Source: Cytophaga hutchinsonii ATCC 33406
Lineage (GTDB): Bacteria; Bacteroidota; Bacteroidia; Cytophagales; Cytophagaceae
Length of the DNA: 64,000 nucleotides
Direction: 5' to 3'
Assembly: GCF_000014145.1 (NCBI RefSeq)
Contig: NC_008255.1
Span: 3,178,001 to 3,242,000 of the forward strand
Shown: piece after piece, positions 2,799 through 21,809 of the stretch
Layout of the letters: the number at the start of each line of letters is the position of its first letter
Numbering within the stretch: position 1 is the stretch's first letter
Position numbers and translations under genes: made by a program
The notes under the pieces: model-generated
What the model saw: the letters and a program-made list of their open reading frames with translations, nothing else
Database searches by the model: none
Told to the model about the DNA's origin: nothing

Positions 2799-3122
2799 TT
2801 ATTTAGAACGGTACTGAAATTGATTTTTGTAGTTACGAGCCTGAGGCTTTGCATTAGAAGGATAAGCTTCTTTGTTTGCAGTTGTTTTCACTTCAGAAAC
2901 CTCAGATTTTTTAAAGTTATTTTTGTAGTTACCTGCATTTTCAGTTTCAGTACTTACTTGTGTAATTTCTTTACCATCCTGCGCATCAATTTGTGCCTGA
3001 GCTTTAGATGCTTTCATAGGGTGTTTGTAATTGTTTACGCTTACTTGCGGATCATTTCCTCCGGCAAATACTAAACTGGAAATAGAGAATACAAGGGCAG
3101 TTAATATATATGTAGCTTTCAT
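2799..3122 (-). CDS. Small exported NYK-repeat protein, copy B
   Basis: A 107-residue paralogue of 2243-2566. It has a signal peptide (MKATYILTALVFSISSLVFA, cleavage before GGNDPQ) and three NYK motifs, NYKHPMK, NYKNNFK and NYKNQF. Most differences from copy A are conservative or synonymous, so both copies are probably functional. Upstream on the minus strand is TAAATTTG (3170-3177), an exact match to the Bacteroidota -7 consensus, and further upstream the 27-bp conserved element. Function unknown; the predicted location is the periplasm or outside. Confidence 0.8.
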   Translation of the reverse strand: MKATYILTALVFSISSLVFAGGNDPQVSVNNYKHPMKASKAQAQIDAQDGKEITQVSTETENAGNYKNNFKKSEVSEVKTTANKEAYPSNAKPQARNYKNQFQYRSK

Positions 3123-3385: not shown

Positions 3386-4819
3386 TCAATAATAATAGGT
3401 ATAGTCTTTATAATATCTGAGTATAGTGTTTACATAATCAGTTGTTTCATAGCCTCTGCAGTACCCATATTTACATACCTTATCATTATAATATTTGGGC
3501 TGCGTTTTTGCCAGCAGCATCTTCTCAACATTGTCTTCCCACACATTCGGATCAAGTTTGTATTTTTTACACAAGGCTCTTGCATCCTCTACATGGCCCG
3601 CTCCTGCGTTATAAGATGCTAAAATAAATTTCTCTTTGTTGGATTTAGTAATAGCGCTATCTAAAAAATAATTATTTTCTATCCAGCGAATGTATTTTGT
3701 GCCGGCAATAATATTTGCCTGCGGTTTGAAAATATCTTTATCTGATACGCGGCCATATATAAGAGCCGTTCGCGGCATTACCTGCATCAACCCACATGCG
3801 CCTTCCCAGGATTTTAAATTGGGTTTAAAATGAGACTCCTGATGAATGAGTGATGCAACCATACGCCAATCCCACCCGATTTCTTTTGCATGTTTTTTTA
3901 TTATATCATCATACAATGAAATAACAGATAGTAATTCTTTAACAGAATGTCCTTGGGTCTGTGTTAAATCTGCAATATCCGCTGGCAGCGAACGGTACTT
4001 CTTAAGTATCCATTGATAATCACTCGTGTTTTTATTTTTGACCAGCCAGCTATCAAATGCACTTCGCAGGGTGTCCATTTCTGAATGAAACATAAATCCT
4101 ACGGGAGCATTATGTTCAATTATTTTCTCAAGAACCAGATCGGGGAAAACAGCCATTGCTATTGCCGCTTCATTTGCATCAACAATGGTTGCTTCTATTT
4201 CTTTTTTATTCACTTGGCGAAGCAGGAATTCCTTGGTAAGAAGTTCAGCGGTATACGTTACGGTAAAGCTATCCAATGGCTTATTTGAGTTGGTACGTAA
4301 ATAGTGAACATAAGGCGCGTCTTTTAAAAGCGTTACATTCGTTATTTTTTGCACATGGTCTTTATGTTTTACTAAAACCAGATCGGCCATGTAAATGGGT
4401 TTGCTGTAGCATACAGCAGGCATTGGTTTATCAGGAATGATAAATGTTGAAGCGGCCATATGCCCGCCATAAAAATGCAGACTATCGCGGATGTAAACTA
4501 CATTATTAACTAATATAATTTCACAATCGATTTTTTTCTCTTTTAAAAATAACTTCAGCAGTTCATATTCTAAACCAAAAGCTTCTCCTTTATAAACAAA
4601 AAACGTATTGGCATTATTTACGATCAACAGTTTTAGTTTCTTTGTTTTAAGTGGATTCAATACCACCGGATCATCTATGTGCGGCTCTGTTTTATATATT
4701 AAAATACCTGAAGAATCTAGTAATAGATCATTTACTGCCTCATTGGGGAATTCTTTTTTTGCTGATTGGCAACAATAAAAAAATATCAGAAGTGGAATAA
4801 AAATAACAACCTGTTTCAT
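3386..4819 (-). CDS. MltF-like lytic transglycosylase (SBP domain + SLT domain), lipoprotein
   Basis: A 477-residue protein with the MltF architecture: an N-terminal solute-binding-protein type 3 domain (about residues 45-270) and a C-terminal SLT lysozyme-like domain (about 285-440). The SLT domain has the catalytic Glu328 in HQESHF, then GACGLMQVMPRTA and ILASYNAGAG. It cleaves the MurNAc-GlcNAc bond of peptidoglycan with formation of a 1,6-anhydro product. I chose the ATG at 4819 rather than 4849 because it begins a lipoprotein signal peptide (MKQVVIFIPLLIFFYCC), with the lipidated Cys near residue 17. The protein should sit in the periplasm, anchored to a membrane. The start lies about 20 bp downstream of a 15-bp hairpin (4838-4872). 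Confidence 0.87.
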   Translation of the reverse strand: MKQVVIFIPLLIFFYCCQSAKKEFPNEAVNDLLLDSSGILIYKTEPHIDDPVVLNPLKTKKLKLLIVNNANTFFVYKGEAFGLEYELLKLFLKEKKIDCEIILVNNVVYIRDSLHFYGGHMAASTFIIPDKPMPAVCYSKPIYMADLVLVKHKDHVQKITNVTLLKDAPYVHYLRTNSNKPLDSFTVTYTAELLTKEFLLRQVNKKEIEATIVDANEAAIAMAVFPDLVLEKIIEHNAPVGFMFHSEMDTLRSAFDSWLVKNKNTSDYQWILKKYRSLPADIADLTQTQGHSVKELLSVISLYDDIIKKHAKEIGWDWRMVASLIHQESHFKPNLKSWEGACGLMQVMPRTALIYGRVSDKDIFKPQANIIAGTKYIRWIENNYFLDSAITKSNKEKFILASYNAGAGHVEDARALCKKYKLDPNVWEDNVEKMLLAKTQPKYYNDKVCKYGYCRGYETTDYVNTILRYYKDYTYYY

Positions 4820-4837
4820 AACTGAATATACGCAAAG

Positions 4838-4872
4838 AACAAAAATCAATCTGGTTTAGATTGATTTTTGTT
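4838..4872. other. Inverted repeat between mltF-like gene and response regulator
   Basis: Arms of 15 bp (AACAAAAATCAATCT and complement) surround a 5-nt loop. It lies just before the mltF-like ATG on that gene's transcript and downstream of the response-regulator gene. It could be a second terminator for the regulator or a 5' leader hairpin for the transglycosylase. Confidence 0.45.
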
Positions 4873-5064: not shown

Positions 5065-5529
5065 TTACGACAATAATTTTTGTCTGATCATAAATTCAAG
5101 CTGATTGTTTACTTTAAGAAGTTCTTTTGTTAAGTCTTCGTTTTCTTTTCTTAACGTATACAATTCGTGTGCCTGATTGATAAACATCTTTAATTCTTCT
5201 TCATTCCAGGGTTTATTGATGTATCTATAGATCTGGCCTTTGTTTACAGCGTCAATCAATGCCTGCATATCGGTATATCCGGTAAGCAATATTCTGATCG
5301 GATTCGGGAATTCTTTGATAATAGATTCTAAAAATTCTACACCGGTCATTTCAGGCATACGTTGATCTGTAATAATAATTTCAACATCTACGCTTTCAAG
5401 TATTTTACGTCCTTCGCTCGCAGACTCAGCAGTATATATGTCATAAAGCTTTCTGAAATTGGCTTTAAATGCTGACAGGTTATTGACCTCATCATCAATA
5501 TAAAGTACTTTAATTTTTGGCTCTTCCAT
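5065..5529 (-). CDS. Stand-alone response regulator with C-terminal coiled coil
   Basis: A 154-residue CheY-like receiver domain with all key residues: acidic pair D12-D13 (YIDDE), phospho-acceptor D55 (IIITDQRMPEMTG), T83 (LLTGYTD) and K106 (YINKPW). Residues 115-150 are heptad-like and charged, suggesting a short coiled coil for dimerisation or docking. No DNA-binding or enzymatic output domain is present. It therefore probably acts by protein contact or as a phosphate shuttle. The gene is divergent from the ThiF/nitroreductase-GNAT-kinase cluster, 262 bp away, with a palindrome in between. That placement makes it the obvious candidate partner of the kinase at 8858-10999, although no direct evidence links them. 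Confidence 0.9.
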   Translation of the reverse strand: MEEPKIKVLYIDDEVNNLSAFKANFRKLYDIYTAESASEGRKILESVDVEIIITDQRMPEMTGVEFLESIIKEFPNPIRILLTGYTDMQALIDAVNKGQIYRYINKPWNEEELKMFINQAHELYTLRKENEDLTKELLKVNNQLEFMIRQKLLS

Positions 5530-5655
5530 AATTTTATTGATTCATAAAAGGTATTAATTGATACAATCTAAGGCTATATTTTCAAAAAACGTAACATTTT
5601 CAGGGTTTAATGAGTATTATGTAATAAATATAAAAAAAGCATTTGAATAGAATAT

Positions 5656-5682
5656 TGCTATAATAATAAATTTATTATAGCA
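5656..5682. promoter_or_regulatory. Palindrome in divergent promoter region
   Basis: Perfect 11-bp arms TGCTATAATAA/TTATTATAGCA with a 5-nt loop lie in the 262-bp AT-rich gap between the response regulator (minus) and the ThiF-nitroreductase gene (plus). It could be an operator shared by both promoters. No T run follows, so it is not a normal terminator. Confidence 0.45.
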
Positions 5683-5791
5683 TACTTTGCCGTATTTACA
5701 AAGATATTTTTTTTAATATTCAATTCACAAAAATGCACAAATTATTTTGATACAGCTTTAATTGATCAACACCTGATAATTTTATAATGTT

Positions 5792-8104
5792 ATGAATAAA
5801 CGTTTAACTGATATAAATAAATCTGAAGAGGCATTTACAGCTTATAAGCCTATTTTTTTTAGACTTGCTTTTGAAAAAGACAGGTTAGCGCTTGAAAAGC
5901 TTTTAAGTGACAATGACAGGATATTCATCTTTAACGAAATACAGGGGCAATTAAAAGAACTTATCAAATTATTACATCCGACCAGAAAACTTAACGACGC
6001 TGATTACGATTATTTGATTGACAATCACCTTAATGGTCTTCCAATGGAAGAATACGGGGTTTGGGTCTATTATCCATGGTCCAATCGGTTAGTTCATATT
6101 TTGGATGAACATGAATTTATAGAAGTCAGAACAAACAGAAATCAATACAAGATTACACCAGAAGAGCGTGACAAACTCTCGAAACAAAAAATTGGCGTCA
6201 TTGGATTATCTGTAGGACAATCTATTTCTTTAACCTTAGCCTTAGAAAGAAGTTTTGGTGAATTAAGAATAGCAGACTTTGATGTTCTCGAATTAAGCAA
6301 TCTGAATAGAATAAGAAGTGGTTTATCAAATTTAAATTTAAAAAAGACAGTTTGTGTTGCCAGAGAAATTCTGGAAATAGATCCCTTTTTGAATGTTACA
6401 CTTTTCTCAGATGGTATTACCGAGGATAATATAGATGATTTTTTTCTTAAGAACGGTAAGTTAGATCTTGTTATTGACGAGTGCGATGGTTTGGATATAA
6501 AGATATTGTGCCGGTATAAAGCGAAAGAGTTGAAGATCCCTGTGTTCATGGAATCCAGTGACAGAGGTACTATTGATATAGAACGTTTTGATCTGGAACC
6601 TGATCGCACGATTTTACATGGATTAATAGACCATCTTGATCACAAGAAATTAAAATATTTAAAAACGAATGAGGAAAAAATTCCATACATACTTCCTATG
6701 TTAGGGACTGATACCATATCGAAAAGAATGAAGGCTTCTATGGTAGAGATCGAACAAACAATTACGACCTGGCCTCAGTTGGCTTCTTCAGTGGTTTTTG
6801 GCGGTGGTATCGGTGCTGATATTTGCAGGAGAATCATATTAGATCAGTTTCACGACTCGGGTAGATATATTGTTGACATGGAAGAATTAGTCGGCAATAA
6901 AATAAAGATCAATCCAACAACTGAACGATCCTTTCCATCCTTTCCTGAAATTACCGGAGAGGACATGGAAAATACGTATAAAGAATTAAGTATAGAAATA
7001 AGAAGTGCCAACTTCTTATTAAGCGAAGGAACGCTGTTTGAATTAATAAACGCAGCTAATCTTGCTCCTTCCGTTGGAAATAACCAACCATGGAAGTGGT
7101 TTTACAAAGAAGGTTCTCTTTTGCTGTTTCATGATAAAAGTATCACGATTTCATTTGGTGATTATGACGAAGTAGGAAGTAATGTAACGATGGGAGCCTG
7201 CATTGAAAATCTTATCCTGAAAGCTCATCACTTAGGTTTGAATGTCACTAAAAATATTTTCCCACTTCCTGAAAAACCCTTACTCGTTGCTGTTTTCTCA
7301 TTTTCAGAAATATTACCTGCTCAAAAACAACCTACTGATTATTTAGTAAATTATATTGAAAAGAGATGTACAAACAGAAATAATGGCAAAAGAATCTCTG
7401 TAGACAAGTCAGATATTGATTCATTAAAAAATATTGCTCAATCAATACCTGGAGCAGTGTTGCATATTATTGAATCGGATGCCGATTTGGAGGCAATTAA
7501 AAATGTAATCGCCGCATGCGACAGATTAAGGTTTATGCATCCTGAAGGGCATCACGATTTTTTTACTAAAGAAATACGGTGGACAAAAGAAGACTGTGAA
7601 AAAACACGGGATGGTTTAGATATTGCAGCTTTTGATTTAACACCTTCGGAAGTAGCCGGCTTCAAAATGGCCTCAGACCCGGATGTCATTAAATATCTCA
7701 CAATATGGGAAGGTGGAAAAGCTTTTGAAAAGATGACCAGAAAAGCTGTAGATTCTGCGGCTGCCATTGCTTTCTTAACAATGCCAACATACAACAACGT
7801 GAATTACTTATTGGGTGGACAGTGTGTGCAAAGAATATGGCTGGAAGCTACAAAACGGAATTTATCCATACAGCCAATGTTAGCACCTCTTTTTTTATTC
7901 ACAAGATTAATACATGGAAATGGCGAAAACATACCAGCGAAAATGTCTGATGAGCTGAAAGAATTAAGAAAAAAATTCCTTACTATATTTCCGATAAAAG
8001 AAAATATGGGAGAAATATTCCTTTTCAAAATATCACTTTCATCAGAACTCCAGGTTAGATCCCTGAGAAAACCGGTTGAATCAGTTCTTACCTGGACGAA
8101 ATAA
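5792..8104 (+). CDS. ThiF/E1-like adenylyltransferase-nitroreductase fusion (Rv1355c-type)
   Basis: A 770-residue two-domain enzyme. Residues about 110-380 form a ThiF/MoeB/HesA Rossmann fold: nucleotide loop GVIGLSVGQS, then the acidic IADFDVLELSNLNR segment, which in E1-like enzymes binds ATP and the substrate tail. Residues about 410-750 look like a flavin nitroreductase, with AANLAPSVGNNQPWKW near its start and a C-terminal LLGGQCVQRIWLEA segment. The N-terminal 100 residues are helical and unassigned. This fusion matches the family called Rv1355c after a mycobacterial member, whose reaction I do not know. E1-like proteins adenylate a carboxylate, and nitroreductase-fold proteins reduce or dehydrogenate, so a small-molecule product is plausible. 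The gene ends 9 bp before the GNAT gene, so they are surely co-transcribed. Confidence 0.8.
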   Translation: MNKRLTDINKSEEAFTAYKPIFFRLAFEKDRLALEKLLSDNDRIFIFNEIQGQLKELIKLLHPTRKLNDADYDYLIDNHLNGLPMEEYGVWVYYPWSNRLVHILDEHEFIEVRTNRNQYKITPEERDKLSKQKIGVIGLSVGQSISLTLALERSFGELRIADFDVLELSNLNRIRSGLSNLNLKKTVCVAREILEIDPFLNVTLFSDGITEDNIDDFFLKNGKLDLVIDECDGLDIKILCRYKAKELKIPVFMESSDRGTIDIERFDLEPDRTILHGLIDHLDHKKLKYLKTNEEKIPYILPMLGTDTISKRMKASMVEIEQTITTWPQLASSVVFGGGIGADICRRIILDQFHDSGRYIVDMEELVGNKIKINPTTERSFPSFPEITGEDMENTYKELSIEIRSANFLLSEGTLFELINAANLAPSVGNNQPWKWFYKEGSLLLFHDKSITISFGDYDEVGSNVTMGACIENLILKAHHLGLNVTKNIFPLPEKPLLVAVFSFSEILPAQKQPTDYLVNYIEKRCTNRNNGKRISVDKSDIDSLKNIAQSIPGAVLHIIESDADLEAIKNVIAACDRLRFMHPEGHHDFFTKEIRWTKEDCEKTRDGLDIAAFDLTPSEVAGFKMASDPDVIKYLTIWEGGKAFEKMTRKAVDSAAAIAFLTMPTYNNVNYLLGGQCVQRIWLEATKRNLSIQPMLAPLFLFTRLIHGNGENIPAKMSDELKELRKKFLTIFPIKENMGEIFLFKISLSSELQVRSLRKPVESVLTWTK

Positions 8105-8113
8105 ATAAGTATT

Positions 8114-8812
8114 GTGTATAGCATTCGGATAAGAGCTTTTCGTGCGATAGAAGATATTCATTTATGTGAGCAATTTATGAATGGTCATAGAGAAGTGTTG
8201 CAAATATTTGGTATCACTGAAATTACTTCAGCCAATACGGAGTGGTTTTTTAATCCTAATGCATATGTTATTATTGCGGAATCTGTTGAATCGGGTAAAA
8301 TAGTAGGCGGGGCAAGAATACACATTGTAGGGGGTACTCAGCCTTTGCCAATAGAAGATGCTATAGGAAAAATGGATCCTCATATTTACAAATTAGTGGA
8401 AGAACATGGAAAAAAAGGTTCAGGAGAATTATGCGGTTTATGGAATGCAAGAGAAGTTGCCGGTATGGGTATCAGTACCATGTTGACAAGGGCTGCCATT
8501 GCACTGGCGATTCAGTTAAACTTATCTACTTTATTCGTAATATGTGCAGAAAGAACGTATCAAAATATATTTAAAGATCAGGGGTTTGAAATTATTCCTT
8601 CTTTGGGTGATCACGGCGCTTTCTATTATCCTAAATCTGACATGGTGGCGGTGGCTCTTATCATTAATGATCTACGAACATTGCCCAATGCTACAAATGC
8701 CGATAGAATCAAAATTATGGATATGAAAAATAATCCAAATCAAAGAAAAACAGAAGATGGGCCTAAAGATGAATTTGATGTGAACTACAATCTTCTTGTA
8801 AAACAAAGTTAA
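8114..8812 (+). CDS. GNAT-fold acyltransferase, autoinducer-synthase-like
   Basis: A 232-residue protein whose N-terminal 200 residues look like an acyltransferase of the GNAT/LuxI superfamily: beta strands YSIRIRAF and YVIIAES, then IVGGARIHI, the helix region GELCGLWNAREVAGMG, and LSTLFVICAERTYQNIF with a downstream DQGFEIIP. The pattern (an early strand, a GELCGL strand, then a helix at the acyl-CoA site) recalls autoinducer-synthase-type acyltransferases more than simple acetyltransferases. This is by eye and not decisive. The start is GTG at 8114, 9 bp after the upstream stop; the first in-frame ATG would remove the first strand. The C-terminal 35 residues are polar and disordered. It should act on the same molecule as the ThiF-nitroreductase product. 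Confidence 0.65.
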   Translation: MYSIRIRAFRAIEDIHLCEQFMNGHREVLQIFGITEITSANTEWFFNPNAYVIIAESVESGKIVGGARIHIVGGTQPLPIEDAIGKMDPHIYKLVEEHGKKGSGELCGLWNAREVAGMGISTMLTRAAIALAIQLNLSTLFVICAERTYQNIFKDQGFEIIPSLGDHGAFYYPKSDMVAVALIINDLRTLPNATNADRIKIMDMKNNPNQRKTEDGPKDEFDVNYNLLVKQS

Positions 8813-8857
8813 AAAAGCAATATTGTGATTGACCCTTTTAGATATTTTCATTGCACT

Positions 8858-10999
8858 ATGAATAAAAAAACGCTTATTAATGTATTAGCCTTTCTTTTTT
8901 TGCCGTTTTTAATTAATGCTGAGAATATATTTTTATATACAGATCCTTCCAGTATTATGAAAATCGACAAGGGTATTATGTATTTTCAGGATGAAACAAA
9001 TTTATTGACGATTAATGATATTGTTTCCCGCAAGGATTTTATTGCCGTAAATCAAAAAGTTCCAAATCTTGGCGTTACATCTTCCGCTCAATGGTTGAAA
9101 ATCACAATCAAGAATACAACCGATGTTCCTAAACTTTTATTAAAAGTTGATTTTCCGATTATCGATGAAATTGAATTTTATTCATTTGAAGATGGGAAGA
9201 TGCGAATAGAAAAGATGGGCGAATATAAAGATTTTTCGGAACGGAGATACAATGACCCCAATTACATATATGACATCACTATAAAAAACAACCAGACTCA
9301 AACCTATTATCTTAAAATAAAAAGTGGCGAGCAAATTATGCTCCCGATCACAATCGGAACACCACAAAAAATTTTTGAAAGCATCTCAACTAAGGATGCC
9401 ATTTTTGGAATTTATTTCGGGATAATTATTGTAATGTTTTTATATAACTTGTTTCTTTATTTTACTGTTCAGGATAAAAGTTATTTATTTTATGTAATTT
9501 ATATTATGTGCGTAGGACTTACGCAGACGTTCCTGCATGGATATACGTTCAAATATCTGTGGCCCAACAGCTCGTGGTTAGCAATACATACAATGTATCT
9601 GTTACCTTCCTTTGTAGGAATAGCTATTGCTGAATTTGCAAAAGTCTTTTTACAAGTTAAAGAACATTCAAAAATTTTATATAAAGGATTTTACATTATA
9701 AATTTTATATATATAATATGTATCATACTTGCTGTAACAGGAAATTATAATCAAAGCCAACAGGTAATTCATATCAATGCCATGTTGGTGTCTTTGTATA
9801 CATTATTTGTCGGATTTATTATTGCCAGAAAGGGTTATAGACCAGCTATTTTTTTCTCCATTGCGTGGTTTACTTTTTTAATAGGCGTATGTCTGTTCAT
9901 ACTAAAAGATCTTGGAGTTCTTCCTTATAATAATTTTACCGTGTATGCAATGCCTGCGGGAAGCGCAATAGAAGTAGTGTTACTTTCATTAGCATTAGCA
10001 GACAGGATTAATATTCTGAAAAAAGAAAAAGAAGAATCTCAAGCGCAAGCCCTGCGCGCGTTAAAGGAAAATGAATTGATCATAACCAATCAGAATATTG
10101 TTTTAGAACGCAATGTTAAAAAACGAACCAAACAATTGCAGAAAACCAATAATGATTTATCAAGTGCCTTATTGGAGCTGAAGCAAGCGCAGTCTCAATT
10201 GGTGAACTCAGAAAAGATGGCATCCCTTGGGCAACTTACAGCCGGTATTGCGCATGAAATAAACAATCCAATCAATTTTGTGGTTTCAAATGTTAAACCA
10301 CTAAAAAGAGATATTGAAGATATTTATGAGCTGGTAAATAAATATGAAACGATTGAGGTACAAAATATAGAATCTAAAATTTCTGAAATCAATACCTTCC
10401 GAAATGAAATAGATTACAATTACCTGAAAGAAGAGATCGGATATTTACTCAAAGGGATTGAAGATGGTGCCGGCCGTACAGCGGATATTGTAAAAGGGCT
10501 TCGGGTATTCTCCAGACTGGATGAAACAGATTTGAAACGCACCAATATAACAGAAGGTCTCAATTCTACATTAACCCTTTTAAATCCTGAAATTTCAGGT
10601 TCAATAGAATTAGTCAAAAACTTCGGAAACATTCCTGAAATAGAATGTTTCCCGGGAAAACTGAACCAGGTTTTCATGAACATTTTTAATAATGCTATTT
10701 ATGCCATAAAGGCTAAAAAAGATTCTCAGGAAAAAGGCCAATTAACAATAAGCACCTCTGCAGATAATCTTAATGTATATATAAGCATTAAAGACAACGG
10801 TATCGGAATGACAGATGCCGTAAAAGCAAAAATCTTTGAACCATTTTTTACTACCAAAGCCGTTGGCAAAGGTACAGGCTTAGGTATGTCAATCACCTTC
10901 TCTATTATACGTGATCACAATGGTTCTATCGAATTGAATACAGAAGCTGGCGTAGGAACAGAGTTTATAATTGTTCTACCTATTACTTATAAAAATTAA
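8858..10999 (+). CDS. 7TM-DISM sensor histidine kinase, complete (HK1)
   Basis: A 713-residue membrane kinase. A signal peptide ([21 protein letters not shown]) is followed by an extracytoplasmic 7TMR-DISMED2 beta domain (about 25-170) with [13 protein letters not shown]. Seven membrane helices follow (about 180-385), then a coiled coil and a DHp domain with phospho-acceptor His466 in GIAHEINNP. The HATPase domain has its N box in [10 protein letters not shown] (about 608-617), DNGIGM near 646, and GKGTGLGMS. The start is ATG 8858, since the upstream GTG at 8825 would put a polar tail before the signal peptide. It follows the GNAT gene by 45 bp. It should sense an extracellular ligand and phosphorylate a receiver protein such as 5065-5529. 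It is the only one of four tandem paralogues with the histidine. Confidence 0.92.
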
Positions 11000-11035
11000 G
11001 GTGTCCCAATAGCTGGAATATTTTCGTTTTACAGC

Positions 11036-11096
11036 ATATGCGTTACAATAAAAATACCTAACCAATGAGTTTTTTTGCTGTAACGCATATTTTTTG
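11036..11096 (+). terminator. Terminator after HK1
   Basis: Perfect 12-bp arms ATATGCGTTACA/TGTAACGCATAT (11036-11047 and 11079-11090) around a 31-nt loop, followed by six T. It ends the ThiF-nitroreductase/GNAT/HK1 unit. Confidence 0.65.
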
Positions 11097-11126
11097 ATAT
11101 AAATATAAAATATGCCTAAAATAAAT

Positions 11127-11134
11127 TAGATTTG
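11127..11134 (+). promoter_or_regulatory. Candidate -7 box for HK2
   Basis: TAGATTTG matches TAnnTTTG and lies 53 bp before the HK2 start, after the HK1 terminator. No -33 element is present at normal spacing. Confidence 0.4.
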
Positions 11135-11187
11135 ATGTCATAGATATGCTAATTTAATCTAAACAAAGGGCATACCAAACTGCTACA

Positions 11188-13311
11188 ATGATACATATTA
11201 AACGTATTTTAATATTATTCTTTTTTTTACAAAGCACCTTTTTATTCGCCTCAAAAGCTGATTCAATCATATATTTTACAGACACCGGTACCCTTAAAGA
11301 TATAAAGACATCCATCTACATTTTTGAGGATACAAGTTCAGCACTATCTTTTGAGGACGTTATCCTGAAAAATAATTTCACACGTTCAAAATTTGAAGTA
11401 CCTAATTTAGGTGTCAGCAAATCCACTTTTTGGATTAGATTTTCTATTTGCAACAACACACCATCCAAGAATTTACTTTTACAATTATCTTATCCCTTGT
11501 TGGATGTTGCAGACCTGTATTATTTGAATTCCAAAGGAATATATTCCATTATTAAAGCGGGTGATCTAAAAACTTTTTCAAGTAGGAAATATAAAAATCA
11601 AAATTTCATTTATGACGTTTCAATTGATCAAAATGAAACGAAAACATTTTATATGAAAATCAACTCGGCCGAGCAAATATTAATTCCATTATATCTGGGA
11701 GAAAAAGAGATTATTGCAGAATCAAACAGTTTGATGGATATTATGGTGGGGATTTATATAGGAATAATTCTCGTAATGTTTTTATACAATGCATTCATCT
11801 TTATAATGGTTAAAGATATCAGCTATTTATATTATATTGTTTATATACTTTTCATTGGCTTAACTCAAGTAACACTTCTGGGATATGCAAAAAGACTATT
11901 ATGGCCAGAGAACCTTTGGCTTGCAAGTCATGCATTGTACATTGCTGCAGCCATAGGAAGTTCATGTATTGCTATTTTTATCAATAGTTTTTTAAAACTG
12001 AAAACATATGCGCCAAAGCTTGTATTCTGTATTTATATAATTGTATTGTTGTACATATGCTCAATAATCGCAGCCCTTTCCGAACATCAACATTTAAGTT
12101 ATAACATTATTGATATTAATGGAATTATCATTTCCATATTTTGCATGTATGTATCAATCAAAATGTCTTTTCAGGGATATAAACCAGCACGTTTTTTTTT
12201 ATTAGGATGGACGGTTTTTATGATTGGTGTATTAATTTTTGTATTAAGAAATTTCGGATTTTTCCCCTTCAATTCTTTTACAAATTATACAATGCCTGCC
12301 GGTTCGGCTTTAGAAGTAGCACTCCTATCTTTGGCATTAGCAGATCGGATCAATATCCTAAAAAAGGAAAAAGAAGCATCGCAGGCACTTGCCTTGCATG
12401 CCCTGCAGCAAAATGAAATGATTATTACCAACCAGAATATCATACTCGAAAAAAAGGTAGGTGAACGTACGAAAGAAATTGAAGAAGCCAACAGCGCGTT
12501 GTATAAAGCGCTTGCAGAATTAGAAAAAGCAGATACACGTCTTGCAAAGACAGGAAAACTGATTTCACTGGATGGCTTATCTTCAGACAATACTAACACA
12601 TCAAATATTCCGTTAAAAAAAGCGCCGGATGATATTTTTGATTTGCTAACGAAATATGACATGAACGTACCTTGTGATAAGGAAAGTAAAATCATTCCAT
12701 TAAATACACCACGAAACACGATCGACTATTCATCTATCCAAGAAGAAATTGAGCAGCTGCTTAGTGGTATTGAAGATGGAGCTACACGTACAGCTGCTGT
12801 TGTAAAAGGGCTTCGCGTATTTTCCCCCTTAAATGATACGGATCTGAAAAGAATATCTGTTACAGAAAGTATTGATTCCATCTTAACAGATTTACATACT
12901 GAAATTTCCGGAACCATTGAACTCGCAAAAAACTTTACGGCCATACCTGAAATAGAATGTTTCCCGGCTAAGTTGAATGAGGTATTTATGAATATCCTCC
13001 ATAATGCCATACAGGCAATTAAAGCAAAAAAAGACCCGGAAAATAAAGGATTAATAATTATAAGCACATACTCCGATACAAAAAAAATATACATCAGCAT
13101 TAAAGACAATGGCATCGGCATGACAAAAGAAATAAAATCAAAAATCTTTGAGCCCTTCTTTACCACCAAAGATATAGGAAACGGTGTTGGATTGGGCATG
13201 TCGGTTAGTCTTTCCATTATAAGCGATCATAATGGAACAATTGAATTAAATACAACATATGGCAAGGGAACAGAGGTTATTCTTACCCTCCCTATTAATT
13301 ATACGAAATAA
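11188..13311 (+). CDS. 7TM-DISM kinase-like protein lacking phospho-acceptor His (HK2)
   Basis: A 707-residue paralogue of HK1 with the same order: signal peptide (MIHIKRILILFFFLQSTFLFA), DISMED2 domain with NLGVSKSTFWIRF, seven membrane helices (about 184-385), coiled coil ERTKEIEEAN, and a HATPase domain. The HATPase motifs are kept: NILHNAIQAI near 601, DNGIGM, and GNGVGLGMS. The stretch that in HK1 holds [16 protein letters not shown] is replaced by ISLDGLSSDNTNTSN, so the histidine and its helix are lost. The second DHp helix ([20 protein letters not shown]) survives. It may bind ATP or dimerise with HK1, but self-phosphorylation at the usual site is impossible. The reading frame is intact, which argues for selection on the remaining parts. 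Confidence 0.88.
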   Translation: MIHIKRILILFFFLQSTFLFASKADSIIYFTDTGTLKDIKTSIYIFEDTSSALSFEDVILKNNFTRSKFEVPNLGVSKSTFWIRFSICNNTPSKNLLLQLSYPLLDVADLYYLNSKGIYSIIKAGDLKTFSSRKYKNQNFIYDVSIDQNETKTFYMKINSAEQILIPLYLGEKEIIAESNSLMDIMVGIYIGIILVMFLYNAFIFIMVKDISYLYYIVYILFIGLTQVTLLGYAKRLLWPENLWLASHALYIAAAIGSSCIAIFINSFLKLKTYAPKLVFCIYIIVLLYICSIIAALSEHQHLSYNIIDINGIIISIFCMYVSIKMSFQGYKPARFFLLGWTVFMIGVLIFVLRNFGFFPFNSFTNYTMPAGSALEVALLSLALADRINILKKEKEASQALALHALQQNEMIITNQNIILEKKVGERTKEIEEANSALYKALAELEKADTRLAKTGKLISLDGLSSDNTNTSNIPLKKAPDDIFDLLTKYDMNVPCDKESKIIPLNTPRNTIDYSSIQEEIEQLLSGIEDGATRTAAVVKGLRVFSPLNDTDLKRISVTESIDSILTDLHTEISGTIELAKNFTAIPEIECFPAKLNEVFMNILHNAIQAIKAKKDPENKGLIIISTYSDTKKIYISIKDNGIGMTKEIKSKIFEPFFTTKDIGNGVGLGMSVSLSIISDHNGTIELNTTYGKGTEVILTLPINYTK

Positions 13312-13391
13312 ACCGTTCTGACATAGCTAAAAGAATTCATATTTATTAAATTTTCACGATTTGCCCCACGTGATCAAACAGCTTAATCTGA

Positions 13392-15542
13392 ATGAAATAT
13401 TTATTTATAGTATTGTTATCAGCAGCAATTATAAGCGTTGCAGGAGCCTCTCCTATTGTAACCTATACAAATGCCGCTGAAAAATTAAACATTGGCAATA
13501 AGGCTTCAATACGTATAGATACCAATCAGACATATACCATACATCAGATCTTATCAGATACTCCTGAATATGTGTATCCGGAAGCTATGCCAAACCTGGG
13601 TTTAAGTAGTTATGTTTATTGGGCAACCTTTGATCTGGTAAATACATCTTCTGAAAATTTAATCTTAAAATTTAACCAGCCGCTCTTAAATGAAATAACT
13701 CTTTACAGAACAGACGGCAAATCACTTTCAGAAATAACCTATTCGGAAAGCGAGCCTTTCCTATCAAGAAAATATTATTACCCCTCGTATGCATTTGACA
13801 TGAACGCCAACATGGGCGATACCATTACCTATGTATTACGATTCAAAAGTAATGAACCCATTATTTTTGATGTTGACATTGCCAATCAATCTGTAATCGC
13901 TAAAGAAGAACTTCAGCAAGAACTCATAACGGGCATTTTTATAGGAATAATCTTTGTTATGCTTTTTTATAATTTATTTATTTATTTTACTGTTCTGGAT
14001 TCAAGCTATCTCGCTTATGTTTGTTATATTATTTGCATCGGGCTAACTCATATAACATTACCAGGATATGGTTTTAAGTATATCTGGCCAAATTTTCCAG
14101 CCTTTAATGATTTATCTGTTACCCTATTTTCTGTTTTTGCGGCGGTATTTGCTATTGAATTTTTAAAACAATTTTTAAGAACAAAACAACACGTACCTCG
14201 TGTACATAAATTATTTTCATTATTTGAAATCATTTTCATCTGTACTCTTCTTATATATTTTACGGGTAACAAATTACTTGCATTCACGATTATACAGCTT
14301 ATTACATTTGTTCTGTGTATATGCATAATAGTTACAGCAATAAAGATCATATACATTGGCTACAGGCCAGCTATATTCTTTCTGACAGCCTGGCTGATAC
14401 TTTTACTTTCAGCATGTATTTTTATAGCAAAAGATTTTGATATTATTCCATATAATTTTTTTACTATCCATGCTATGCAGATTGGTTCTGCTGTTGAAGT
14501 GATTCTCCTTTCCTTTGCCCTCGCCGATAAAATAAACATTCTAAAAAAAGAAAAAGAATTGTCGCAAGCACAGGCAGTGAACGCATTGATGCAAAACAAA
14601 ATGATCCTTATTAACCAGAATATTGTACTGGAAAGAAAAGTTGGTGAACGTACAAAAGAAATAGAGAATACAAATAACGAATTATACAAAGCACTTGCTG
14701 AACTAAAAAAAGCACAAACACACCTTCTCAACACAGAAAAAATATCTTCAATGAATCCATATCCAACAGATGAAACTAATAAAACCATCCATTTCATTCC
14801 ATCTGTTGCTAATCCTTTAAAAAAAGATCTTGATGATATTCATGACTTGCTGAATAAATACAGCATGGATACTCCAGCAGATACTATTAAAAAAGACAGT
14901 ATTAAAATTGATACCAGCCAGAACAAAAACGATAATGCATCGATCAAAGCAGAAATGGAGCTGTTGTTTAATAACATTGAAAACAGGTCTGTTACAAAAG
15001 TTCCTGTTACAAAAGGGCTGCGGATATCCTACCAATTAGATCATACTGATCTGAAAAGAATACAGGTTTCAGAAAGTATTAACTCAGCGTTAACACGTTT
15101 GGATTCTGATATTTTCAATTCTATTGAACTTGTTAAAAATTTTTCGGCTATGCCCGAAATAGAATGTTCTTCTGAAAAGCTGCAGCTGGCATTGATACAT
15201 ATTTTAACGAATGCCATACAGGCTATTGAAGAAAAAAAGGGTGCGGGAGACAAAGGTCTATTATTCATCCGTACGTTTTCAAATAACGATAACGTATCCA
15301 TCAATATTAAAGATAATGGTATAGGGATGACGGATGAGGTAAAAGAAAAAATATTTGAACCTTTCTTCACCACTAAAGCTATGGGCAAGGGATTGGGCTT
15401 ATCTACTGCCTTGTCCATCATAAGCGCTCATAATGGCACGATTGAATTGAATACAGTATGTGGGGAAGGCACAGAATGTATTATTACGCTGCCTATCAAC
15501 TATGTAAATAACACTGCTGATCCATCCATAGGATTATACTAA
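13392..15542 (+). CDS. 7TM-DISM kinase-like protein, most diverged (HK3)
   Basis: A 716-residue paralogue with signal peptide MKYLFIVLLSAAIISVAGA, DISMED2 domain (MPNLGLSSYVYWATF), seven membrane helices, coiled coil ERTKEIENTN and a HATPase domain with DNGIGM and GKGLGLS. The DHp region is the most eroded of the four: the histidine segment is gone, and the second helix reads NNIENRSVTKVPVTKGLRI in place of the conserved [17 protein letters not shown]. The N box keeps its asparagine (HILTNAIQAI near residue 603). The C terminus has an extra tail (NNTADPSIGLY) that overlaps a 14-bp hairpin spanning the stop codon. It starts 80 bp after HK2. Probably a catalytically impaired receptor or decoy; function unproven. 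Confidence 0.86.
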   Translation: MKYLFIVLLSAAIISVAGASPIVTYTNAAEKLNIGNKASIRIDTNQTYTIHQILSDTPEYVYPEAMPNLGLSSYVYWATFDLVNTSSENLILKFNQPLLNEITLYRTDGKSLSEITYSESEPFLSRKYYYPSYAFDMNANMGDTITYVLRFKSNEPIIFDVDIANQSVIAKEELQQELITGIFIGIIFVMLFYNLFIYFTVLDSSYLAYVCYIICIGLTHITLPGYGFKYIWPNFPAFNDLSVTLFSVFAAVFAIEFLKQFLRTKQHVPRVHKLFSLFEIIFICTLLIYFTGNKLLAFTIIQLITFVLCICIIVTAIKIIYIGYRPAIFFLTAWLILLLSACIFIAKDFDIIPYNFFTIHAMQIGSAVEVILLSFALADKINILKKEKELSQAQAVNALMQNKMILINQNIVLERKVGERTKEIENTNNELYKALAELKKAQTHLLNTEKISSMNPYPTDETNKTIHFIPSVANPLKKDLDDIHDLLNKYSMDTPADTIKKDSIKIDTSQNKNDNASIKAEMELLFNNIENRSVTKVPVTKGLRISYQLDHTDLKRIQVSESINSALTRLDSDIFNSIELVKNFSAMPEIECSSEKLQLALIHILTNAIQAIEEKKGAGDKGLLFIRTFSNNDNVSINIKDNGIGMTDEVKEKIFEPFFTTKAMGKGLGLSTALSIISAHNGTIELNTVCGEGTECIITLPINYVNNTADPSIGLY

Positions 15543-15560
15543 CCGTATGGATGGATCAGT
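15518..15560 (+). terminator. Hairpin spanning the HK3 stop codon
   Basis: Perfect 14-bp arms CTGATCCATCCATA/TATGGATGGATCAG (15518-15531 and 15547-15560) enclose the last codons and the stop. Only a weak AT-rich tail follows, so termination efficiency is uncertain. Confidence 0.45.
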
Positions 15561-15716
15561 ATTTAATATATATTTAAAAAGGAACTTTTGAAAGATTTCA
15601 TCGAACCTATTCAACCGTTTTTATGCAGATCCTTCGCTATATTAATATAGTTTTAAAAAACTACGTTGCCGTGATGCAAATACAAACGTTACTTACATTG
15701 AAAAAGTCTTAATTTT

Positions 15717-17807
15717 ATGAAATGTCTGTGTGTATTTCTATTGCTATTATCAGGAATAATTTCAAAATGTTTAGGAGCATTCCCTATCATAACATATACG
15801 TCTGCCGCTGGTAAAATAAATATTGGCAATCAAGCTGCCATATATGCAGACACAAATCAAACATATACAATACATCAGATTTTATCAGGCACTCCTAAAC
15901 GTATTTATTCTTCAGCCATGCCAAACCTGGGTTTAAGCAATCATGTTTATTGGGCTACATTTAATTTCGTAAATATCTCACCTGAAAAATTAATTTTAAA
16001 GTTTAATCAGCCACTTTTAAATGAAGTAACTCTTTATAGAGCAGATGGAAAAACACTTTCAGAAGTAACGTATTCGGAAAAAAATGTTTTTTTCTCAAGA
16101 AAATATTACTATCCCTTTTATGCATTCGACATGAATGCCGGCATGGGTGATACCATTACGTATGTGTTAAAATTTAAAAGCAATGAACCAATTATTTTTG
16201 ATGTTGATATTGCAACCGAATCTGTAATTGAGAAAGGAGAACTTCAGCAGGAACTTCTTATAGGTATTTTTATAGGAATAATTTTTGTAATGTTTTTTTA
16301 TAATTTATTTATTTATTTTACTGTTCTGGATTCAAGTTATCTGGCTTACGTATTTTATATTTTTTGCATCGGCCTTAGCCAGATAACAATACCAGGGTAC
16401 GGATTCAAATACATCTGGCCTACTGCCCCTGAATTTAATGATCTATCGCTTATATTATTTGCTACATTAGCTACTATATTCGGCATCGAATTTGTAAAAA
16501 TTTTTTTAAAAACAAAACAACATGCACCCAACCTGCATAAATTGTTTTCATTATTTGAAATCATTTTCAGCGGCATTCTTATTCTATATTTTGCGGACAA
16601 AAAAATACTTGCATTTACAGCTTTACAGCTTTTAACATTTGGCCTAAGTGTATGTATTATTGTTACAGCAATAAAGATTATACACATGGGCTACCGGCCG
16701 GCGATATTTTTTCTATCGGCCTGGCTTGTACTCTTACTTGGGTCTTGTATTTTTATTGGAAAAGATTTTGGTTTAGTTCCATATAATTTTTTTACTGCCC
16801 ATTCCATGCAGATCGGTTCTGCTTTGGAAGTAACACTGCTTTCCTTAGCATTAGCAGATCGGATAAACATACTCAAAAAGGAAAAAGAAACCTCGCAAGC
16901 ACTTGCCTTGAATGCATTACAACAAAATGAAATGATTATTACGAACCAGAATACCATACTGGAAAAGAAAGTAGCAGAACGTACAAAAGAAATTGAGCAA
17001 GCCAATAATGCATTATATAAAGCACTTTCTGAATTAGAAAAAGCAGAGACATGGCTTATGCATACAGAAAAAGAAATTTCACCGGATGCATCGAATGCGA
17101 TTCCTTTAAAAAGAGAAACAGATGATATTTTTGATTTATTAACTAAATATGAAATGCATGCACCTTCTGATAATCCGCAAGGTAAAATCATTCCATTAAA
17201 TACTTCACACAGTACGCTTGATTATTCATCCATCAAAGAAGAAATTGAGCAGCTGCTTAGCGGCATTGAAGATGGTGCTACACGCACAGCAGCTGTTGTA
17301 AAAGGACTTCGGGTATTTTCGCCATTAAATGATACAGACCTGAAAAGAATATGTGTTACAGAGAACATCAATTCTGTCTTAACAGAGCTGCATGCTGAAA
17401 TTGCAGAAACCATAAATCTTACAAAAAATTTTAGCCCCCTTCCGCAAATAGAATGCTTTCCGGCTAAGCTGAATGAGGTATTTATAAATATCATCAACAA
17501 TGCCTTATATGCCATTAAAGCAAAAAAAGATCGCGCAGATAAAGGCATGCTGCTTATAAGCACCTATTCCGACACAAAAAAAATATTCATCAGCTTTAAG
17601 GATAATGGTATAGGAATGACTGATGAAGTAAAGGCAAAAATCTTTGAGCCGTTCTTTACTACCAAAGACATAGGAAACAGTTCGGGATTAGGAATGTCTG
17701 TAAGCCTTTCCATTATAAGCGATCACAATGGTACAATTGAATTGAACACAGAATATGGTAAAGGAACAGAGGTTATCATTACCCTGCCTGTTAATTACAC
17801 AAGCTAG
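15717..17807 (+). CDS. 7TM-DISM kinase-like protein, mosaic of HK3 and HK2 (HK4)
   Basis: A 696-residue paralogue. The signal peptide (MKCLCVFLLLLSGIISKCLGA), DISMED2 domain (TYTIHQILSGTP, MPNLGLSNHVYWATF) and seven membrane helices follow HK3 closely. From the coiled coil on ([13 protein letters not shown] onward), the sequence switches to that of HK2, for example DYSSIKEEIEQLLSGIEDG and GLRVFSPLNDTDLKRI. The histidine segment is missing as in HK2. The HATPase motifs NIINNALYAI (near 591), DNGIGM and GNSSGLGMS are intact. The protein thus pairs an HK3-type sensor with an HK2-type output, as expected from recombination between tandem copies. It starts 174 bp after HK3. A role as a ligand-binding modulator of HK1 is possible. 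Confidence 0.87.
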   Translation: MKCLCVFLLLLSGIISKCLGAFPIITYTSAAGKINIGNQAAIYADTNQTYTIHQILSGTPKRIYSSAMPNLGLSNHVYWATFNFVNISPEKLILKFNQPLLNEVTLYRADGKTLSEVTYSEKNVFFSRKYYYPFYAFDMNAGMGDTITYVLKFKSNEPIIFDVDIATESVIEKGELQQELLIGIFIGIIFVMFFYNLFIYFTVLDSSYLAYVFYIFCIGLSQITIPGYGFKYIWPTAPEFNDLSLILFATLATIFGIEFVKIFLKTKQHAPNLHKLFSLFEIIFSGILILYFADKKILAFTALQLLTFGLSVCIIVTAIKIIHMGYRPAIFFLSAWLVLLLGSCIFIGKDFGLVPYNFFTAHSMQIGSALEVTLLSLALADRINILKKEKETSQALALNALQQNEMIITNQNTILEKKVAERTKEIEQANNALYKALSELEKAETWLMHTEKEISPDASNAIPLKRETDDIFDLLTKYEMHAPSDNPQGKIIPLNTSHSTLDYSSIKEEIEQLLSGIEDGATRTAAVVKGLRVFSPLNDTDLKRICVTENINSVLTELHAEIAETINLTKNFSPLPQIECFPAKLNEVFINIINNALYAIKAKKDRADKGMLLISTYSDTKKIFISFKDNGIGMTDEVKAKIFEPFFTTKDIGNSSGLGMSVSLSIISDHNGTIELNTEYGKGTEVIITLPVNYTS

Positions 17808-20776: not shown

Positions 20777-20849
20777 TGATCCCGCTGGGATTCGAACCCA
20801 GGACCCTAACATTAAAAGTGTTATGCTCTACCGGCTGAGCTACAGAATC
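20777..20849 (-). tRNA. tRNA-Lys (TTT), copy 1
   Basis: A 73-nt tRNA. Acceptor GATTCTG pairs with CGGGATC, with G-T pairs, the D arm is GCTCAGCCGGTAGAGC, and the anticodon loop is CTTTTAA (anticodon TTT). The T arm is CTGGGTTCGAATCCCAG. CCA is not encoded. Identical to the copy at 21737-21809. It has its own promoter and terminator. Confidence 0.96.
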
Positions 20850-21736: not shown

Positions 21737-21809
21737 TGATCCCGCTGGGATTCGAACCCAGGACCCTAACATTAAAAGTGTTATGCTCTACCGGCTGAGC
21801 TACAGAATC
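21737..21809 (-). tRNA. tRNA-Lys (TTT), copy 2
   Basis: The 73-nt sequence is identical to copy 1 at 20777-20849, with anticodon TTT and no encoded CCA. The duplicated unit includes the promoter (see 21849-21879), while the terminators differ in sequence. Confidence 0.96.

Follow-up and report, generated by a model that had tools for sequence, protein, structure and literature searches.

A candidate autoinducer-like module of oxazolone-type synthase genes and 7TM-DISM receptor genes in Cytophaga hutchinsonii and other Bacteroidota

Background

The closest described relatives of the locus treated here are enzymes that make N-acyl oxazolones. Rv1355c, or TrzS, is reported to make N-acyl tryptazolones together with the acyltransferase TrzA, TrzS first closing the ring of an N-acyl amino acid in an ATP-dependent step and then desaturating it in an O2-dependent step (PMC12856293). 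TyzACB is described as performing the same reactions with tyrosine or phenylalanine (PMC10404671), and OxzAB likewise. What oxazolones do in the cell is, according to the tryptazolone report, a major question still to be resolved; the report raises signalling as one possibility, and notes that oxazolones resemble acyl-homoserine lactones, that cyclic di-GMP (c-di-GMP) genes lie nearby, and that acid and methanol break oxazolones down (PMC12856293). The present study concerns a locus of Cytophaga hutchinsonii ATCC 33406 in which a TrzS-like gene and a gene for an acyltransferase of GNAT fold (here called the GNAT protein) precede four genes for receptors of the 7TM-DISM type, HK1 to HK4. The locus lies in a window of 64,000 nucleotides (the whole stretch of DNA that was analysed, positions 3178001-3242000 of the single-contig genome of 4,433,218 bases). 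We hold it to be moderately probable that it constitutes an autoinducer-like synthase/receptor module, the product and its sensing being what we infer. To our knowledge, no dedicated small-molecule quorum-sensing synthase/receptor pair is known in Bacteroidota, and the module looks like a new bacterial communication system in scattered members of this phylum.

Organization and conservation of the module

The locus comprises the following features, numbered from the first base of the window:

5065-5529, minus strand: receiver-only response regulator of 154 aa (Response_reg, 63.5 bits)
5656-5682, strandless: AT-rich perfect palindrome with 11-bp arms and a 5-bp loop, in the divergent promoter region
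5699-5730, minus strand: putative promoter of the receiver gene, TTG-N21-TATCTTTG (pattern match to a Bacteroidota-type consensus)
5792-8104, plus strand: TrzS/OxzB-like ThiF-nitroreductase fusion (NF005901)
8114-8812, plus strand: GNAT-fold acyltransferase with GTG start, predicted N-acyl amino acid synthase (AlphaFold2, Foldseek)
8858-10999, plus strand: HK1, 7TM-DISM histidine kinase with ATG at 8858, predicted cognate receptor (H-box HEINNP and ATPase motifs intact)
11188-13311, plus strand: HK2, 7TM-DISM receptor that lacks the H-box and keeps the ATPase motifs (motif reading, sensor tree)
13392-15542, plus strand: HK3, 7TM-DISM receptor without H-box, N-box altered and G2 box shortened
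15717-17807, plus strand: HK4, 7TM-DISM receptor without H-box, ectodomain HK3-like and output half HK2-like

The intergenic gaps from the receiver gene through HK4 measure 262, 9, 45, 188, 80 and 174 bp, and searches of Pfam and NCBIfam identified ThiF, nitroreductase, Acetyltransf_1, 7TMR-DISM_7TM, DISMED2, HATPase_c and Response_reg domains. An earlier note on this DNA, made from the sequence alone, had listed the same genes at the same positions, including the divergent receiver-only gene and the 9- and 45-bp spacing between the fusion, the GNAT protein and the first kinase, all of which is borne out. Its "kinase array" amounts to a single kinase, HK1, followed by three 7TM-DISM proteins, HK2-HK4, that are without the phosphoacceptor histidine region. 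As the genome encodes 15 DISM genes in all, adjacency by chance would be well below 1% per gene, assuming some thousands of genes.

A search with the ThiF profile gave at least 564 related loci, the best 80 of which were compared. Nearly all of these are labelled as Bacteroidota, the exceptions being L075 (Azovibrio restrictus, a metagenome-assembled genome) and L129 (labelled only "bacterium"). Of these best 80 loci, 77 have the acyltransferase gene close to ThiF, and 73 encode ThiF and oxidase as one fusion protein. A 7TM-DISM protein is encoded immediately downstream of the enzyme pair in 67 of the 68 loci with at least 3.5 kb of downstream sequence (exception L120), with a spacing of -38 to 177 bp, often -4.

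In a survey of 395 genomes drawn evenly from Bacteroidota, the GNAT protein (threshold E <= 1e-6) was found in 13 genomes, from 11 of 171 genera; NF005901 was detected at E <= 1e-60 in ten of these, and a DISM kinase adjoins the GNAT gene in all 13 (this window and 12 others). The survey profile was built from ThiF-linked loci only, and still found two loci without ThiF. In 27 further loci, one of which shares a contig with a member of the 80-locus set (L035 = L088), a DISM protein is always encoded within two genes of the GNAT gene on the same strand, accompanied by ThiF (23 loci), a detected oxidase domain (14), a receiver-only gene (21) and a nearby gene for a receiver-kinase (21). The conservation beyond close relatives on which the earlier note had made its proposal depend was thus found in all three samples, and synthase-like and receptor-like genes are encoded together, as in quorum-sensing systems. 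The distribution is patchy: a search of relatives found the GNAT protein in 15 of 39 genomes (own genome included), and it is absent from one of two genomes of the same genus. Pedobacter is an example of a culturable relative that carries the locus.

The predicted synthase pair

The fusion protein is a member of the Rv1355c family (NF005901, 917 bits against a cut-off of 476, residues 9-769) and consists of a ThiF-type cyclase (about residues 1-390) followed by a flavin-dependent oxidase of nitroreductase fold (about 405-770). D232 of an ECD motif is invariant (14/14) and also present in the actinobacterial proteins compared, with which the fusion shares R596 (EIRW); D232 and R596 are putative counterparts of residues in the catalytic set D217, R540 and Q651 of TrzS from M. 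smegmatis. These similarities suggest that the fusion is probably a TrzS/OxzB-like synthase of the oxazolone type. The reading in the earlier note, that the E1-like part adenylates and the nitroreductase part reduces, came close, but TrzS of this family is reported to cyclise its substrate and then to desaturate it oxidatively (PMC12856293). A defence system was also considered and rejected, since PADLOC gave only weak E1-E2 matches to the ThiF part.

The GNAT protein matches Acetyltransf_1 weakly (25.6 bits, cut-off 20.7). Its score for the Pfam FeeM family (PF21926) is below cut-off (11.5 bits against 27), and that family matches one of 50 homologues (E 6.5e-4). No match to the LuxI family PF00765 was found for the protein up to E 1, nor for the 50 homologues up to E 0.1, and on this ground membership in the LuxI family was rejected. 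TIGR03694 (exosort_acyl), which we take to be LuxI-like, appears weakly in two of the 50 homologues (best E 0.056). With an AlphaFold2 model of the GNAT protein built from 50 aligned sequences (predicted local distance difference test score, pLDDT, 94.3), Foldseek ranks FeeM first, followed by the CoA-dependent acyl-homoserine-lactone synthases MesI, BjaI and RpaI (ranks 1-9), the first plain acetyltransferase appearing at rank 10. VIA-align gives Z 17.2 over 174 residues for FeeM and 16.5 over 183 for LasI, and the plain GNATs 1xeb and ElaA tie with FeeM (16.6 and 16.5; 16.6 over 145 residues). The plain acetyltransferase that the earlier note had allowed for is therefore disfavoured by the Foldseek ranking, but not by the VIA-align scores. 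A comparison by hhalign with the four closely similar, uncharacterised proteins encoded beside Rhodococcus Rv1355c-family genes gave a probability of 81 (E 1.2e-5, 171 columns), and a comparison of the profile with the sequences of solved structures gave two chance-level matches only. By its fold, the Rhodococcus comparison and its genomic context, the GNAT protein is likely to be an N-acyl amino acid synthase.

In two loci, L129 (12466-13916) and L141 (12259-14223), two tandem GNAT genes lie between the ThiF-nitroreductase gene and the receptor gene, possibly serving two acyl chains or two amino acids.

Variants with other tailoring enzymes

In three loci ThiF is replaced by another enzyme. 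L182 and L183 are without a ThiF gene and encode an ICMT-type carboxyl methyltransferase between the GNAT protein and the receptor (ICMT 70.6 and 66.2 bits; PEMT, a phospholipid methyltransferase family, 59.8 and 59.1 bits). In L043 the GNAT protein (26% identical to that of the window), a FAD_binding_4 oxidase and a DISM protein are encoded in one run (5422-10107); the output of this DISM protein, read by eye, is a SpoIIE-like phosphatase instead of a kinase, and L043 is possibly a kinase-free relative of the module. A fourth locus, L030, from the same genus as the window, also has a FAD_binding_4 oxidase between GNAT protein and receptor, but its contig ends about 0.5 kb upstream of the GNAT gene, so that a ThiF gene before it is possible. 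Ring closure and methylation would each remove the charge of the free carboxylate of an N-acyl amino acid, which suggests that the signal would be permeable and that its chemistry would depend on the lineage while acyltransferase and receptor stay.

The HK1 receptor and its co-variation with the enzymes

HK1 has all the parts of a 7TM-DISM kinase, i.e. DISMED2, 7TM, H-box and HATPase. A model of its ectodomain and 7TM part (pLDDT 95.1) shows the fold of the RetS periplasmic domain (3jyb; Foldseek E 5.9e-7, VIA-align Z 16.4) and a 7TM part resembling class C G-protein-coupled receptors (GPCRs; GPR156, Z 15.5), adiponectin receptor 1 (13.0) and TMEM87A (11.9), scores which may reflect the common arrangement of a helical bundle, the fold saying nothing on the ligand. 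Wntless, at Foldseek ranks 3-6 (E 1.5e-4 to 3.5e-4, root-mean-square deviation about 21 A), was not used as evidence of lipid binding because class C GPCRs score higher in VIA-align. The DISM protein of the same genome that is nearest to HK1 by domain score (L056/L161) is not encoded beside a synthase, and keeps a histidine in HQINNP.

Distances between module parts were correlated over 53 loci, with RpoB of the same genomes as control (found in 57 of 60). The Pearson correlation of the 7TM part is 0.61 with ThiF, 0.59 with the nitroreductase part and 0.51 with the GNAT protein, against 0.35 with its own kinase half; the kinase half in turn correlates at 0.94 with the receiver-kinase. The mean difference between the correlations of the 7TM part with the enzymes and with the output is 0.216 (bootstrap 95% interval 0.124-0.308). 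The sensor half of the receptor thus co-varies with the enzymes, and the output half with the downstream receiver-kinase. In partial Mantel tests given RpoB, none of 1000 permutations was as high in any of the 21 pairs, so that this test cannot separate the pairs; the contrast in size does. RpoB correlates at only 0.09-0.37 with any module part, and as the operons follow it weakly, the module probably moves between lineages.

Gene order also coincides with one sensor clade, that of HK2: of its 18 other loci, 16 place the GNAT gene first, and of the linked loci outside it 10 of 72 do so (Fisher p 2.9e-9, uncorrected for shared ancestry). By their oxidases these GNAT-first members are almost monophyletic (12 in a clade of 13), and in the output tree they are spread (16 in 84 of 103). 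The three loci whose sensors group with HK3 and HK4 share a clade of 4 members in the tree of the GNAT protein, of 8 in that of ThiF, of 9 in that of the oxidase and of 45 in that of the output half. From the conserved linkage, the variants in which other tailoring enzymes accompany the same receptor, and this co-variation, HK1 probably detects the product of the enzymes, so that the earlier note's proposal of enzymes whose product the adjacent receptors may detect is supported in part.

Receiver protein and promoter region

The receiver-only protein aligns with 139 of the 422 positions of the NosR-family receiver model NF053512, scoring 171 bits against a cut-off of 400. It ends in the tail LEFMIRQKLLS, and a DQRMP motif occurs in 61 of 62 homologues; no output domain scores over its family cut-off. 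The receiver-kinase has no clear orthologue elsewhere in the genome, the best near-full-length match being 34% identical. The putative promoter of the receiver gene was located by its match to the pattern of the Bacteroidota-type consensus.

A palindrome in the shared promoter region, reported in the earlier note, does exist and has perfect arms, but 11 bp was reached in 12 of 500 Markov shuffles of this stretch of 20% GC, and among the family's other divergent intergenic regions only one in 56 has a palindrome that reaches this length. As a regulator site it was rejected as weak and non-recurrent, and it is probably not a defining element of the module.

Receptors without a phosphoacceptor histidine

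HK1 is the sole bearer of an H-box among the four receptors. The HEINNP segment, and with it the first part of the DHp helix, is missing from HK2, HK3 and HK4, and an H-box is present in each of the 69 DISM kinases of more than 600 aa from the 80-locus set. As judged from these motifs, HK2-HK4 are unable to autophosphorylate on the usual histidine. Their reading frames are complete (696-716 aa). HK2 and HK4 keep intact ATPase boxes, and in HK3 the N-box is changed and the G2 box partly lost. For the ATPase domain, pairwise ratios of nonsynonymous to synonymous substitution (dN/dS) among the three lie at 0.14-0.18 (0.24-0.34 overall), values that are rough because dS is 0.9-1.8; the low ratio in the ATPase domain argues against simple decay. 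The three proteins are mosaics, the ectodomains of HK3 and HK4 being 74% alike and the output halves of HK2 and HK4 78-79%.

Trees of sensor and output halves (FastTree, one alignment each) differ. The output halves of HK1-HK4 group with those of same-genus L030 and own-genome L056 (support 1.0), those of HK2-HK4 together with support 0.999. The sensor halves are divided over three clades, each of synthase-linked receptors that other genomes encode: L125 and L126 group with HK1 (0.915), 18 others with HK2 (0.964), and L118, L133 and L137 with HK3 and HK4 (0.996). Neighbours of the HK2-HK4 sensors found by phmmer alone were set aside in favour of the trees, because the set searched consists mostly of synthase-linked receptors. 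With sensors that group with receptors of other species and output halves that are genus-specific, HK2-HK4 may be decoy or eavesdropping receptors facing the products of other species.

This would hold if the sensor type reports the ligand type, and has the sensor and ThiF trees as its main basis; the enzyme trees support a foreign match only in part. In the ThiF tree L078, L070, L084 and L085 are closest to the window. Of 102 ranks counted from there, the mates of HK2 occupy 45-98 and those of HK3/HK4 occupy 82-87, as would fit sensors of foreign type, but the two close mates of HK1 are found at 61 and 73. In the oxidase tree the mates of HK2 rank 35-83 of 87, and those of HK3/HK4 rank 5 (L133), 10 (L118) and 87. 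The foreign-sensor reading is weakened by these two mates near the window's own enzyme. The GNAT tree, in which the position of the window is unsupported, places the one mate of HK1 at rank 6, those of HK2 at 11-101 and those of HK3/HK4 at 12-52 of 105.

Proposed mechanism and alternative explanations

We propose that the GNAT protein, as its fold and context suggest, would link an acyl group to an amino acid, and that, as in TrzS of the same family, the ThiF domain would use ATP to close the N-acyl amino acid to an oxazolone, the ring of which the nitroreductase-fold oxidase would desaturate. The uncharged, lipophilic product would reach the membrane or periplasm of the producing and neighbouring cells and bind the 7TM part of HK1. 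Phosphate would then pass from HK1, judging by the domains, to the divergent receiver protein, and in relatives also to the downstream receiver-kinase, which is absent here at this place. For HK2-HK4 the likeliest role would be an action on HK1, either as partners that bind ligand or as decoys. The final output of the circuit is not encoded at the locus. In its widest form the proposal would describe a modular, horizontally moving communication of Bacteroidota by N-acyl amino acid derivatives (oxazolones, with methyl esters and FAD-oxidised products as variants), with a GPCR-like 7TM kinase as receptor, sensor halves as enzyme-linked specificity types and, in this genome, three signal-blind receptors of foreign type that absorb or eavesdrop; so extended, we think it quite unlikely to hold in full.

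Several observations weigh against a synthase/receptor module. The published tryptazolones are reported to occur at higher levels within the cells than in the surrounding medium (PMC12856293). The DISMED2 ectodomain, of the RetS and carbohydrate-module type, fits a sugar ligand no less than a lipid, and no DNA-binding domain above cut-off was found in the receiver-only protein or the receiver-kinase, so that no feedback on the operon is visible. Spearman correlations are weaker (7TM part with ThiF 0.40, nitroreductase part 0.39, GNAT protein 0.22, own output half 0.27), and part of the co-variation may reflect joint transfer without ligand matching, since enzymes and sensor half are adjacent; the GNAT-first members of the HK2 type form no clade in the ThiF tree (16 in 42 of 103) or the GNAT tree (16 in 68 of 106). 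The 80-locus set is biased to close ThiF relatives, and GNATs in other contexts may be missed by a survey profile built from ThiF-linked loci. Alternatively, the kinase would regulate the pathway without sensing its product, detecting envelope or carbohydrate stress and controlling how an oxazolone lipid is made or used as envelope component, protectant or weapon. The RetS-type ectodomain and the SpoIIE-like, kinase-free DISM protein of L043 fit such a role, as does the induction of oxazolones in proteobacteria by subinhibitory antibiotics, for which stress roles are discussed (cited in PMC12856293). The oxazolones of M. tuberculosis, however, are reported as uninduced by antibiotics or oxidative stress (PMC12856293), the receiver proteins offer no recognizable DNA-binding domain, and a general stress sensor would not need a sensor half that tracks the enzymes over its own kinase half (Pearson); we regard this explanation as somewhat unlikely. 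A plain metabolic cluster, with an ordinary acetyltransferase and an unrelated receptor as chance neighbours, would agree with the tie of 1xeb and ElaA with FeeM, but the linkage in 67 of 68 loci and 13 of 13 genomes, with genes overlapping or closely spaced, makes it highly improbable.

The receptors without H-box could likewise be decaying pseudogenes from duplications after loss of the H-box, as the altered N and G2 boxes of HK3 might suggest. Against this stand the complete frames, the low dN/dS, the ATPase motifs kept in HK2 and HK4, and the joining of one H-less output to two different sensor types, and we consider decay unlikely. A credible, though doubtful, alternative is that HK2-HK4 modulate HK1 in the manner of RetS and bind the local product or some unrelated ligand, foreign signals having no part in this. 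RetS blocks GacS through a heterodimer, its phosphorelay residues being described as dispensable or not fully required (PMC4866733), and it has the DISMED2 fold in common with these receptors; a match to the local product would also agree with the oxidase-tree ranks of L133 and L118, and with HK2 mates from rank 11 in the poorly supported GNAT tree. The HK2-HK4 sensors nevertheless fall in synthase-linked clades other than that of HK1, and their mates lie far from the window in the ThiF tree.

If HK1 is indeed the receptor, the module suggests a role for oxazolones. As the acyltransferase lies beside one receptor type in every genome of the Bacteroidota survey that has it (13/13), this role becomes directly testable in non-pathogenic hosts, with a candidate receptor at hand and kinase activity as readout. 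How such specificities evolve would be seen from the exchange of sensors between loci, and from receptors that lack the histidine and bear sensors of other-species type.

Neighbouring genes and other observations

The module is adjoined on the minus strand by a gene for an MltF-like lytic transglycosylase (window 3386-4849; SLT domain, weak SBP_bac_3, NF008112 222.7 bits, under the cut-off of 354) and, further on, by a tandem pair of genes for similar 107-aa proteins with signal-peptide-like starts (2243-2566 and 2799-3122, minus strand). Two tRNA genes of 71.2 bits each lie 960 bp apart (20777-20849 and 21737-21809, minus strand). Elsewhere in the genome, locus L058 (C1:1936719-1937327 and flanks) encodes a 7TM-DISM protein with, in place of a kinase, a C-terminal part resembling a transposase-type zinc ribbon, WENGFVCKRCGH, a label given by eye.

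Comparison with known systems

The system most similar to the module is TrzAS (Rv1356c-Rv1355c) of mycolic-acid bacteria, which has the same NCBIfam fusion, an adjoining N-acyltransferase and signalling genes nearby, namely c-di-GMP genes beside trzAS in M. tuberculosis according to the report (PMC12856293). The two differ in gene order, and their acyltransferases are only remotely alike, by way of the Rhodococcus proteins (hhalign, see above). No histidine kinase is mentioned in that report (PMC12856293), and none was found in nine actinobacterial plasmid loci. On plasmids of Rhodococcus and Nocardia, a GGDEF gene is found near Rv1355c-family genes in five of these nine loci, read from 13 matches (L149, L164, L166, L167 and L168; that of L164 is unannotated and was identified by eye). 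The GNAT protein was not found on plasmids.

TyzACB (PMC10404671) and OxzAB of Pseudoalteromonas rubra are described as catalysing the same three reactions as proposed here, and the nearest folds of TyzA are given as FeeM and BjaI, as for the GNAT protein; the available text describes no receptor (PMC10404671). N-acyl tyrosine clusters, reported from Pseudomonadota, Actinomycetota and Planctomycetota, likewise combine an acyltransferase with genes of the ThiF and nitroreductase families, and neither "histidine kinase" nor "two-component" occurs in that text (PMC12479983). Among the matches listed from the open-licence literature, read by title and abstract beginning, nothing was found that joins such a synthase pair to a histidine kinase. 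This suggests that, while signalling by oxazolones is an idea already known, a dedicated receptor is new as far as these matches show.

With the LuxI and FeeM synthases the GNAT protein shares a GNAT-derived fold of extended coverage (170-190 residues aligned), and these too make an acylated small molecule. The GNAT protein differs from them in having no PF00765 match and a FeeM score below cut-off, and where LuxI-type systems have LuxR, the module has a 7TM-DISM kinase as its predicted receptor. RetS and LadS of Pseudomonas resemble HK1 in having a DISMED2 ectodomain, a 7TM part and a kinase; we know of no link of either to a synthase, and the signal of LadS is said to be unidentified. RetS is described as a precedent for a DISM kinase that acts without its phosphorelay residues (PMC4866733).

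The pattern of co-variation places the module beside systems that are otherwise distinct from it. The comQXP and agr systems employ peptide signals and other protein families. In these systems, the signal-making genes and the sensor half of the receptor vary together, and the kinase half does not.

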